From Pseudomonas pisciculturae (GTDB taxonomy: Bacteria > Pseudomonadota > Gammaproteobacteria > Pseudomonadales > Pseudomonadaceae), in contig NZ_JACVZE010000001.1 in NCBI RefSeq assembly GCF_015461805.1, positions 930,001 through 994,000 on the forward strand: 64,000 bases of DNA. The letters are read 5' to 3'. A model generated the notes under the pieces. It saw nothing but the letters and a program-made list of their open reading frames with translations, ran no database searches and had not been told where the DNA came from. The position numbers and the translations under genes were made by a program. Below, one piece after another: positions 33,922-42,053 of the stretch; the stretch's first letter is position 1, and every line of letters starts with the position of its first letter.

Positions 33922-34854
33922 TCAGCCAGCCTTGAGTGCTTTGTACGGCACCGAGCACGCCTCATCCAAAAACTTCAGCACTGTCCCCATGCACGCTTGG
34001 CGTTCTTCCACATGGGGCATGTGGCTGGAGTCTTCAAACAGTGCCCAGCGCACGTCGGCAATTTCATCCAGGAACGGCTTGACCACCAGCGGCGTGGCCT
34101 CGTCGTGCCGGCCGGAAATCACCAGGGTCGGCACGTTGATCGCCGACAGGCGGCCGATGGATTTCCAATCTTTCAAGCTACCGATGACGTGGAACTCGGT
34201 CGGGCCACTCATGGCGTGATACACCGTGGGGTCTGAGTCCACTTGGGCAAAGGTGCGCGCCACTTCTTCCGGCCAAGGGTTGACCCGGCAAACGTGCTGG
34301 TCATAGAACACCCGCGATGCTGCGAGGTATTCCGGGTCTTGGTAAGTGCCGGCGGCCTCATGCTTGAGCAAGGTTTCATGCACGCCTTTGGGCAACAGGG
34401 TGCGCAGGCGGTTGGCTTCGCTGACCCAGGTGCGCATGCATGTCGGCGAGTTGGCCGGGATAAACGCGCGTAACCCCTTGGGCTGCAAGATCGCGTGCTC
34501 GCTACCGAGCATGCCACCCCAGGACTGGCCGAGGATCGCGTAGTTGTCGCTGATCTGCAGGTGCTCCAGCAGATTGTTCAGCTCTTCGAGGAACAGACCG
34601 ACGGTCCAGAAGGACGGGTCTTTGTCGGGCAAATGCGTGGAGCGCCCGTTGCCCAGCTGGTCATAGTGGATGACGGCATGGCCGCTGGCGGCAACGTCCT
34701 TGAACGCGTCGACATAATCATGGGTGCAGCCTGGGCCGCCGTGGATCACCACCAGCGGTGTACGGCCGCTGTTCAGGTCACCGGTGACACGGTACCAAGT
34801 CTGGTAGGCGCCAAACGCCGCATACCCTTCGCGGATTTTTTCGATGAATTCCAT
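33922..34854 (-). CDS. Proline-iminopeptidase-type alpha/beta hydrolase (PipR-locus copy 1)
   Basis: 310 residues. Alpha/beta hydrolase of the proline iminopeptidase / L-proline amide hydrolase group: oxyanion HGGPG in VIHGGPGCTHDY, nucleophile Ser in GQSWGGMLGSEHA, acid Asp in SGRHDEATP, His in DSSHMPHVEE. It would release N-terminal proline from short peptides or hydrolyse amino-acid amides in the cytoplasm. The start MEFIEKIREG at 34854 fits the family. A 22-nt inverted repeat centred 72 bases upstream also occurs in front of the other hydrolase gene. It is convergent to the NCS2 gene and adjacent to the LuxR solo on the same strand. Confidence 0.9.
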   Translation of the reverse strand: MEFIEKIREGYAAFGAYQTWYRVTGDLNSGRTPLVVIHGGPGCTHDYVDAFKDVAASGHAVIHYDQLGNGRSTHLPDKDPSFWTVGLFLEELNNLLEHLQISDNYAILGQSWGGMLGSEHAILQPKGLRAFIPANSPTCMRTWVSEANRLRTLLPKGVHETLLKHEAAGTYQDPEYLAASRVFYDQHVCRVNPWPEEVARTFAQVDSDPTVYHAMSGPTEFHVIGSLKDWKSIGRLSAINVPTLVISGRHDEATPLVVKPFLDEIADVRWALFEDSSHMPHVEERQACMGTVLKFLDEACSVPYKALKAG

Positions 34855-34914
34855 TTCGTGCCCTGCTCTGAAAAAAAGGATCAGGGCCACGATAATCCGT
34901 GCGGGCAATTCAGG

Positions 34915-34936
34915 TAACTAGCAAAACAGCTAGGTT
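34915..34936. promoter_or_regulatory. Lux-box-like 22-nt inverted repeat, site 1
   Basis: Half-sites TAACTAGC and GCTAGGTT separated by six bases (AAAACA). Six of eight positions pair. It is centred about 72 bases upstream of the hydrolase start at 34854 and matches in length and half-site sequence the element at 35793-35814. Binding by the adjacent LuxR protein is inferred. Confidence 0.6.
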
Positions 34937-34948
34937 TTTACTGCTGGG

Positions 34949-39542: not shown

Positions 39543-40537
39543 GCCTGTTGCAGATCAAGGATCTGGAAGTGAAGTTCGCCGCGTCCGGCACCGGCTTTTT
39601 CGGGCTTAACAAGCAGTGGGTGAGGGCGGTGAATGGTGTGTCGCTGAGCCTGGCGGCGGGTGAAACGTTGGGGCTGGTGGGGGAGTCCGGCAGCGGCAAA
39701 AGCACCCTCGGTCGGGCGATTTTGCACCTTAACCCCATCAGTGCAGGCCAGGTGCTGTTCGATGGCATCGACATGGCCCACGGCAGCCCCATCGACATCG
39801 CCCGCTTGCGCCATGAAACCGCGATGATCTTCCAAGACCCCTACGCGGCGCTGAACCCGCGCCACACCATCGGCGAAACCCTTGCCGAAGTGCTGCGAGT
39901 ACAACGCAAGGTCACTGCCGCGCAGATTCCCGCGCGTGTTAATGAGCTGCTCGACCTTGTCGGCCTGCGCCCCGAGCTTGCCAGCCGCAAACCCGGCTCC
40001 CTCAGCGGCGGCCAGTGCCAGCGCGTCGGCATCGCGCGGGCGTTGGCCGTGGAGCCGCGCCTGATCATCGCCGATGAATGCGTGGCGGCGTTGGATGTGT
40101 CGATCCAGGGCCAGATCATCAACCTGTTGCTTGAGCTGCAACAGCGCATGAACCTGGCGATCCTGTTTATCGCCCATGACCTGGCCATCGTGCGTCGCCT
40201 GTGCGACCGAGTGGCGGTGATGTACCTGGGCAAGATCGTTGAGGAGGGGCCGGTGGAGGCTGTATTTACCGCGCCACGCCATCCGTACACGGCGGCGCTG
40301 ATCCAGGCGATTCCAGAGATTGACCCCCATCGGCCTTTGCCTACCGAACCCCTGCCGGGGGAGCCACCGAGCCCGCTGAATTTGCCTGCCGGCTGCGCCT
40401 TTCACCCGCGCTGCCGGCATGCGCAGGCCATGTGTTCCGTAGTGTTGCCGCCTACCCACTTCCTGCACGAGCATCGGTACAGTTGCGTGCTTGAACAGCC
40501 GTTGACCCTTCCTGCCGTTATAAACAAGGAGTTATGA
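39539..40537 (+). CDS. ABC transporter ATPase, dipeptide type (DppF-like)
   Basis: 332 residues. Walker A GLVGESGSGKSTLGRAI, signature LSGGQCQRVGIARAL (with Cys in place of the more usual Arg/Gln), Walker B LIIADECVAALDVSIQG, where DECVA replaces the usual DEPVS/T. The C-terminal motif GCAFHPRCRHAQAMC matches DppF/OppF. The start is the ATG at 39539 that overlaps the DppD-like stop; the longer frame is a shadow. Forms the ATPase heterodimer with the preceding product. Confidence 0.93.
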   Translation: MSLLQIKDLEVKFAASGTGFFGLNKQWVRAVNGVSLSLAAGETLGLVGESGSGKSTLGRAILHLNPISAGQVLFDGIDMAHGSPIDIARLRHETAMIFQDPYAALNPRHTIGETLAEVLRVQRKVTAAQIPARVNELLDLVGLRPELASRKPGSLSGGQCQRVGIARALAVEPRLIIADECVAALDVSIQGQIINLLLELQQRMNLAILFIAHDLAIVRRLCDRVAVMYLGKIVEEGPVEAVFTAPRHPYTAALIQAIPEIDPHRPLPTEPLPGEPPSPLNLPAGCAFHPRCRHAQAMCSVVLPPTHFLHEHRYSCVLEQPLTLPAVINKEL

Positions 40538-40538
40538 C

Positions 40539-42053
40539 ATGCAATCGCGCCACTTGAAGCTACTCGCCGCGGCGACGCTCACCGCTTGGTCCCTTACTGC
40601 CGGGTTGGCGCACGCCGCCGGTGTCTTGACCATCGGCTGCCGTGAAGACAGCACCACGTTCGACCCGATCAAAAGCGCGCAAAATCGCGATACTTGGGTA
40701 TTCGCCAACGTCTACGACACCTTGGTGCGCGTGGATAACCTGGGCACCAAGATGGAACCGGGGCTGGCAGAAAGCTGGGATATCTCCAAGGATGGCCTGA
40801 CCTACACTTTCAAACTGCGTGATGCGAAGTTCTCTGACGGCTCGGCGATCACCGCTGAAGATGCGGCGTTCAGCCTGCTGCGTATTCGCGACAACAAGGC
40901 TTCACTGTGGGCTGACCCTTTCAACCTGATCGACACTGCCAAGGCGGCTGACACCAAAACCCTGGTGGTCACGCTCAAGACCCCTGCCGTAGCCTTCCTC
41001 TCACAACTGGCGTCGCCGACGGTGTCGATCCTGTCGGAAAAAGCCATGACCAAGATGGGCGAAGACGCCTACTCGGAAAACCCGGTGACGTCCGGTGCGT
41101 TTACCGTGGACGAGTGGCGCAAGGGCGATCGGGTGATCCTGAAAAAGAACCCGAACTTCTGGCAAGCCAAGAACGTGAGCCTGGACGGTGTGGAGTGGGT
41201 CTCGGTGACCGACGACAACACCCGCATGCGCATGGTGCAGAACAACGAACTGGACACCGCGATCTTCGTGCCCTTTTCGCGGGTAGAAGAGCTGAAGAAA
41301 GATAAAAACGTGGTGGTGCATTCCGACCCGTCCACCCGTGAAGATCACCTGCTAATCAACCACGAGCACGGCTTGCTGGCCAAGCCGGAAGTACGCCAGG
41401 CGCTGGACATGGCCATCGATAAACAATCGCTGGTGAAGACCGCCACCTTCGGTCAAGGCACCGTGGCCTATTCCTACATCCCTAAGGGTTCGCTGTACCA
41501 CTACGCCAACAACCTGCAACGCCCGTACGACCCGACCGAAGCCAAAAAGCTGTTGGCCGCCGCGGGTGCCAAGGACTTGAAGCTGAACTACGTGGTCAAC
41601 GCCGGTAACGAAGCCGACGAGCAGATTGCGGTGATCATCAAGGACCAGTTGGCCAAGGTCGGCGTCACCGCCAACCTGCAAAAGGTCGACCCGACCCAAA
41701 GCTGGCAGATGCTGGTGGACGGTGAGTACGACATTTCGGTGATGTACTGGACCAACGACATCCTCGACCCGGACCAGAAAACCACCTTCGTGCTGGGCCA
41801 CGACACCAACCAGAACTACATGACCCGTTACAAGAACGACAAGGTCAAAGATCTGGTCGCGGCTGCGCGAATCGAGGCCGACCCGGTCAAGCGCGAGCAG
41901 ATGTATGTGGAGTTGCAGAAGTTGGCGAAGCAGGATGTGAACTGGATTGACCTGTACTACAGCCCGTACATCAATATTTCACGCAGCAATATCAGCAACT
42001 TCCTGCAAAACCCGCTGGGCCGTTTCACCCTTGAAGAAGTGGTGAAAAACTAA
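40539..42053 (+). CDS. Periplasmic peptide-binding protein of the ABC transporter (SBP_bac_5)
   Basis: 504 residues. A signal peptide (MQSRHLKLLAAATLTAWSLT, cut near AHAA) and an SBP_bac_5 domain: LTIGCREDSTTFDPIKSAQN, ANVYDTLVR, GLAESWDISKDGLTYTFKLR (split) and ITAEDAAFSLLR. The ligand cannot be told from sequence. In the PipR model the transporter imports the plant-derived inducer or peptides, so this protein would be the first recognition step. Its gene comes last in the operon, one base after the ATPase stop. Confidence 0.93.
   Translation: MQSRHLKLLAAATLTAWSLTAGLAHAAGVLTIGCREDSTTFDPIKSAQNRDTWVFANVYDTLVRVDNLGTKMEPGLAESWDISKDGLTYTFKLRDAKFSDGSAITAEDAAFSLLRIRDNKASLWADPFNLIDTAKAADTKTLVVTLKTPAVAFLSQLASPTVSILSEKAMTKMGEDAYSENPVTSGAFTVDEWRKGDRVILKKNPNFWQAKNVSLDGVEWVSVTDDNTRMRMVQNNELDTAIFVPFSRVEELKKDKNVVVHSDPSTREDHLLINHEHGLLAKPEVRQALDMAIDKQSLVKTATFGQGTVAYSYIPKGSLYHYANNLQRPYDPTEAKKLLAAAGAKDLKLNYVVNAGNEADEQIAVIIKDQLAKVGVTANLQKVDPTQSWQMLVDGEYDISVMYWTNDILDPDQKTTFVLGHDTNQNYMTRYKNDKVKDLVAAARIEADPVKREQMYVELQKLAKQDVNWIDLYYSPYINISRSNISNFLQNPLGRFTLEEVVKN

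Follow-up and report, generated by a model that had tools for sequence, protein, structure and literature searches.

What does the LuxR solo sense that lies, in the genome of Pseudomonas pisciculturae, between two proline iminopeptidase-type hydrolase genes, the second of which leads into the genes of a peptide-type ATP-binding cassette (ABC) transporter? The stretch analysed here, hereafter the window, comprises 64,000 nucleotides (G000:C1:930001-994000) of the species' own genome, a 6.22 Mb assembly in 20 contigs, and the locus is described below in window positions. The comparisons show that this locus is an orthologue of the Pip system of Pseudomonas sp. GM79, a cottonwood endophyte, and very probably forms an import-sense-degrade circuit for a small plant-associated amide. 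Within such a circuit, AapF together with AapBCDE would carry the effector into the cell, where it would bind PipR; PipR would then activate pipA leftward and aapA-F rightward, through one box each, and PipA and AapA would destroy the effector or its product, switching the response off. The response of GM79 is known to require PipR and the transporter and to be raised in peptidase mutants (PMC4981722). As far as sequence can tell, the P. pisciculturae locus is a further copy of this already known system, and new here are only the count of PipR boxes, suggesting a mostly local regulon, and a substrate idea for the two hydrolases.

Relatives of the locus were collected by scanning genome contigs with a 24-row PipR alignment, which gave 415 confirmed relatives, the best 80 of which were kept as loci. 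The closest relatives by PipR are Pseudomonas by name, and the GM79 contig PMI36_contig109 (L064), itself among these best 80 of 415, was used as the reference locus, with identities to the GM79 proteins computed over aligned spans. All the genes named in the preliminary description were found where it had placed them, namely a LuxR protein with Autoind_bind and GerE domains, two hydrolases scoring above the TIGR01250 cut-off and a five-gene transporter. On the minus strand lie pipA (33922..34854), encoding a proline iminopeptidase-family alpha/beta hydrolase of 310 amino acids (aa) (TIGR01250, 249 bits, scored on a longer open reading frame (ORF); 75% identical to GM79 PipA over 294 aa), and pipR (34949..35767), encoding the LuxR solo (PF03472 and PF00196; 72% identical to GM79 PipR). 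The plus strand carries aapA (35897..36784), encoding a second proline iminopeptidase-family hydrolase of 295 aa (TIGR01250, 272 bits, longer ORF scored; 89% identical to GM79 AapA), followed by the DppB/NikB-type permease gene aapB (36788..37735; PF00528, 90%), the DppC/NikC-type permease gene aapC (37732..38589; PF00528, 84%), the ABC ATPase genes with oligo_HPY domains aapD (38586..39542; PF00005 and PF08352, 81%) and aapE (39539..40537; PF00005 and PF08352, scored on a longer ORF from 39437, 81%), and aapF (40539..42053), encoding a periplasmic substrate-binding protein of family 5 (PF00496; 80% identical to GM79 AapF, 405/504). The likely start of pipA is ATG 34854, TTG 34908 being the first start codon after a stop in the ORF list; pipR starts with GTG 35767, with alternative ATG codons at 35734 and 35713, and aapA likely with ATG 35897. 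The four-base overlaps previously ascribed to the operon hold for three of the five aapA-F junctions, the other two being gaps of three bases and one base.

This layout of eight genes, in identical order and on identical strands, was found in 71 of the 80 relative loci and is not due to chance. Among the nine exceptions, L024 and L039 are short contigs, L055 is incomplete at the aap end, and L076-L081 have no aapA orthologue in place. The latter six loci (five P. syringae-group-like and one from P. graminis) are an observation in their own right, as pipR, pipA and transporter genes are kept there.

The earlier view that this regulator answers to something other than acyl-homoserine lactones (AHLs) had been staked in part on its phylogeny, and on that count it held. 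A maximum-likelihood tree of 42 rows, in which 24 of the 80 loci were used, placed 33 Pip-type rows, including GM79 PipR and P. pisciculturae PipR, on one side of a branch with support of 100/100, with L003, L004 and L007 as the rows nearest to the P. pisciculturae protein. The nine outgroup rows comprise LasR, SdiA, the second LuxR protein of the own genome and six LuxR proteins of relatives, so named AHL receptors are represented by LasR and SdiA only, and branching within the outgroup is uncertain given the long branches of SdiA, LasR and one relative. The comparison with PipR, OryR, PsoR, NesR and XccR proposed in the preliminary description was achieved by name for GM79 PipR; the other four solos were represented by stand-ins, the relatives from Kosakonia, Dickeya, Brenneria, Rahnella, Rhizobium, Phyllobacterium and S. 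meliloti, with no Xanthomonas sequence among them.

Pocket residues point in the same direction as the tree. At the TraR positions, P. pisciculturae PipR carries W57, W61, D70, P71 and W85, with T in the Y53 column; Y53 and Y61 are conserved ligand contacts of AHL receptors. T in the Y53 column, W57 and W61 are present in all of the best 80 loci. LasR and SdiA have Y at both 53 and 61, and across the nine outgroup rows position 53 is Y in seven and F in two, position 61 Y in eight and H in one. Retention of W57 with Y61 replaced by W (position names follow the available text of PMC7301841) is a Pip-type trait (PMC4981722; PMC7301841, available text). The possibility that the protein is an AHL receptor eavesdropping on neighbours could draw on its Autoind_bind domain and on the retained W57, D70, P71 and W85, but Y61 is W, the Y53 equivalent is T, and the protein groups with GM79 PipR, which was not activated by six AHLs (PMC4981722); this explanation is highly improbable and was rejected on the tree and the pocket residues.

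No LuxI was found by a search of the own genome, and 14 control genomes were also silent; the same search found LuxI in two of five other genomes, both P. fuscovaginae, and the negative in the own genome is therefore meaningful. LuxI was likewise not found in the GM79 genome by this search. The own genome encodes two Autoind_bind proteins; the second LuxR protein (L154, G000:C20:188500-190000) has an autoinducer domain with Y61 kept and falls outside the Pip clade. GM79 similarly has two orphan LuxR proteins, of which the other one is a PpoR homologue (PMC4981722).

Predicted PipR boxes were located in both promoter regions, upstream of pipA (ACCTAGCTGTTTTGCTAGTT, 34916..34935, minus strand), centred at -71.5, and upstream of aapA (ACCTATAAGAAATGCTAGGT, 35794..35813, plus strand). 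The published GM79 sites lie 71.5 bases before pipA and 91.5 before aapA (PMC4981722). Applied to GM79, our method returned 91.5 for aapA, as published, and 68.5 rather than 71.5 for pipA, three bases off because the pipA start was extrapolated. Choosing the best-matching 20-mer per region as the box biases the scores upward, so that independent evidence comes from where the boxes lie and how well they are conserved. At the pipA box, the 80 available rows (79 loci and the window, L039 not being measurable) show no variation in ACCTA and TAGTT, and the same holds for ACCTA in the 75 rows of the aapA box (74 loci and the window; six loci are without aapA). Across 25 divergent loci and the window, no 20-mer of the intergenic region is more conserved than the pipA box, which shares this rank with the frames shifted upstream by one and two bases; its conservation is 0.85 compared to 0.60 for the rest of the region. 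Before aapA the corresponding values are 0.92 for the box and 0.68 for the rest (19 divergent loci and the window), with 0.93 for the best overlapping stretch; as upstream-overlapping stretches score slightly higher and the block extends past the box toward pipR, conservation here does not come from the box alone.

Downstream of the boxes lie -10-like hexamers, TATCGT (34889..34894, minus strand) 34 bp from the centre of the pipA box and TAGTGT (35836..35841, plus strand) 35 bp from that of the aapA box. In all 26 rows (the 25 divergent loci and the window), a hexamer starting with TAT follows the centre of the pipA box at 34 bp; at aapA, most of 20 rows have a hexamer starting with TA at 35 bp from the box, which is less conserved than the one at pipA. 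LuxR-type activators bind at a site that stands in for the -35 element, a geometry that the spacing of box and -10 here fits. Taken next to the GM79 system (aapFEDCBA-pipR-pipA), the P. pisciculturae locus agrees with it in the content, order and orientation of its eight genes, in the retention of W57 alongside Y61W, in having one box upstream of pipA and another upstream of aapA, and in that no LuxI was found; it differs in that the proteins are 72-90% identical, PipR residue 96 is K in GM79 and E here, and the aapA box lies two bases farther out (-93.5 compared to -91.5). The designation of the locus as PipR-like thus appears sound as a statement of homology, with synteny, boxes and binding protein all agreeing with the published GM79 system.

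The identity of the effector is best approached through the binding protein. The AapF of Pseudomonas sp. PDC86 was reportedly crystallised with the ethanolamine derivative HEHEAA in the primary structure paper. P. pisciculturae AapF is identical to the chain listed as AapF in PDB entries 7kz8 and 7kz9 at 457 of 479 residues (95%), with 22 substitutions. Five rows of P. syringae type (L076 and L078-L081, one of them P. graminis; L077 is without aapF) were used as a contrast; the homologue without HEHEAA binding that is considered below is reportedly from P. syringae. At 43 positions PDC86 and GM79 AapF agree against these five rows, one of the 43 being the last residue, where the five rows end, and P. 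pisciculturae AapF sides with PDC86 and GM79 at 40 of them, the exceptions being 103, 260 and 450. Entry 7kz9 is described as PDC86 AapF bound to HEHEAA (PMC11168924, available text). HEHEAA or a close relative is the putative effector in P. pisciculturae, whose AapF is near-identical to this HEHEAA-binding structure. The locus contributes a carrier belonging to a clade in which AapF hardly differs from the crystallised protein, and the published model could be tested there cheaply.

Several points weigh against a circuit built around a plant-derived HEHEAA-like amide. PipR pocket residues include K96, T100, W104 and H105 (PMC7301841, available text), and the P. pisciculturae protein has E, T, W and H at these positions, three of the four as in GM79. 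As position 96 is highly variable across the 80 loci (E 32, Q 21, K 13, S 6, R 5 and A 3), the change of K96 to E means that ligand preference may differ; E96 is common to many relatives and is not peculiar to the P. pisciculturae strain. According to the available text of PMC10134790, the transporter protein has a close homologue in another species that is unable to bind HEHEAA, so that belonging to this family is not enough to predict the ligand. Commercial ethanolamine preparations contain HEHEAA (PMC7046293, available text), which puts its status as a natural signal in question, and in Kosakonia neither root macerate nor ethanolamine nor HEHEAA elicited a PsrR-dependent response of pip (PMC7301841, available text). 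The first two of these points, together with the departures from PDC86 and GM79 at three of the 43 discriminating AapF positions, would suit a true Pip circuit whose PipR and AapF have, in this clade, become specific for a different small amide or peptide. Such retuning is unlikely, though it deserves serious weight, given that AapF is so close to the HEHEAA-bound PDC86 protein and that T100, W104 and H105 of PipR are kept.

A further explanation is that the genes form a nutritional peptide-scavenging operon, induced by any peptide-rich material, with plants not a relevant source. GM79 PipR responds also to peptone, soytone, tryptone and the tripeptide Ser-His-Ser (PMC4981722), and the carriers include species without an obvious plant tie by name (P. 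antarctica and P. fildesensis). However, leaf macerate also induces in GM79, Ser-His-Ser is active only at 1 mM or more (PMC4981722), and solos of the Pip subgroup come from plant or terrestrial bacteria as far as the available text of PMC10134790 states, making scavenging an improbable account. Under the preferred import-sense-degrade circuit, plants would be the source of the effector in P. pisciculturae. The plant-associated lifestyle read from the locus in the preliminary description is faintly hinted at: 65 of the 298 sampled genomes of the genus, own genome counted, contain a PipR match at E 1e-60 or better, and the locus does not show habitat.

The reach of PipR beyond its own promoters was evaluated by searching for the pattern ACCTAK-N8-CTAGBT. 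Two exact matches were found in the whole own genome, the pipA and aapA boxes, an exclusivity that depends on the pattern having been derived from these same promoters. Of the 80 loci, 12 were taken as pipR-bearing relatives for the same search; both boxes were recovered in all 12, with nothing more in nine and two or three extra matches in the remaining three. Genomes of the same genus without a PipR match lacked the pattern in 14 of 20 cases and contained it in six, indicating that matches can arise without PipR. A reversed-pattern control gave 10 exact matches in the own genome, more than the two of the pattern itself; as CTAG tends to be a rare word in bacterial genomes, this control was not regarded as a fair background. 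One of the genomes without a PipR match (G022) contains several palindromes that are perfect or nearly so, ACCTAGCAGTTTTGCTAGGT among them, which may represent the box of a different LuxR-type regulator.

Allowing one mismatch in the own genome returned 21 rows, four of which are the two boxes on both strands, leaving 17 other 20-mers. Two of these 17 recur exactly in the three relatives searched, ACCTCGTGCTATTTCTAGCT in three of three and ACCTATGATGAGATTTAGTT in one of three with a variant in a second. A wider regulon by way of ACCTCGTGCTATTTCTAGCT and ACCTATGATGAGATTTAGTT was rejected, as inspection of the own-genome sites gave no convincing link to PipR. A one-mismatch box at G000:C1:78496-78515 (L152) is located some 55 bases upstream of a frame that begins MSNTRKPKIAISACLLGENVRF, with an identical or similar 20-mer in two of three relatives. 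At exact-match stringency the PipR regulon of the own genome looks mostly local, and weaker sites are possible.

What the two hydrolases may do in the circuit is suggested by their motifs. AapA aligned with the proline iminopeptidase 1mt3 at GHSWGG (Ser), GQHDELTP (Asp), SSHMPF (His) and GPNEF, motifs with catalytic roles in such enzymes, and the corresponding Ser, Asp and His motifs of PipA aligned with 7a6g and 3wmr. Proline iminopeptidases accept a secondary amine as the N-terminal residue. HEHEAA is made by coupling hydroxyethylglycine to ethanolamine (PMC7046293, available text) and is hence the amide of a secondary-amine amino acid, so that PipA and AapA may cut it. It looks an apt substrate for both enzymes, which would then be the off-switch of the signal. 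GM79 PipA and AapA are N-terminal peptidases, AapA being an alanine aminopeptidase, and in their absence GM79 responds more strongly to leaf macerate and peptone (PMC4981722); the mode of action of pip genes is called unknown in the available text of the review PMC10134790. No literature statement on cleavage of HEHEAA by PipA or AapA was found in a search that did not include the primary HEHEAA and structure papers. The substrate idea makes the role of pip genes testable with purified enzymes.

Carried further, the idea leads to a tentative proposal, possible rather than probable, that the Pip module acts as a dedicated switch for N-substituted glycine amides, in which PipA and AapA would split HEHEAA into hydroxyethylglycine and ethanolamine, the latter feeding a separate ethanolamine-use locus. 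PipR would have no other role in the cell, as no box for it is present outside the two promoters of its own locus. If true, this would explain why a pip gene lies beside all known regulators of the PipR kind. A separate EutB gene is present in the own genome at G000:C20:84276-85562, as identified by a family match. The surrounding ethanolamine-use locus (L153, G000:C20:80000-92000), far from the window, contains frames that by eye appear eutC-like, ethanolamine permease-like and aldehyde dehydrogenase-like, with a divergent regulator-like frame.

Other systems with a LuxR protein beside pip genes differ more clearly from the P. pisciculturae locus than does that of GM79. OryR and XccR of Xanthomonas, known here from papers alone, share the adjacent pip gene and Y61W but have W57M, whereas W57 is kept in P. 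pisciculturae PipR; membership of the OryR/XccR/PsrR subgroup (W57M, Y61W) was rejected on this residue. Xanthomonas is without a linked ABC transporter according to PMC4981722, and a peptide transporter is listed in Table 1 of PMC10134790, in its available text. The NesR-like pip-luxR-pip locus of S. meliloti (L155) likewise has two pip-family genes around luxR, with ABC permease, ATPase and binding-protein genes adjoining; it differs in its single long ATPase gene, in M at position 57 and in a LuxR protein that is 45.5% identical. LuxR proteins beside pip genes are also found on records of the plasmid collection, from S. meliloti (two pip genes) and Rahnella (one). A close relationship of the P. 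pisciculturae copy to a known plasmid locus was rejected, as a near search of the plasmid collection gave no record covering 80% of it, the best covering 21%. Next to pipA in the window, an NCS2 xanthine-type permease gene (32335-33867, plus strand) adjoins the locus, and a divergent LysR-type regulator gene (31241-32191, minus strand) lies beside this permease gene.

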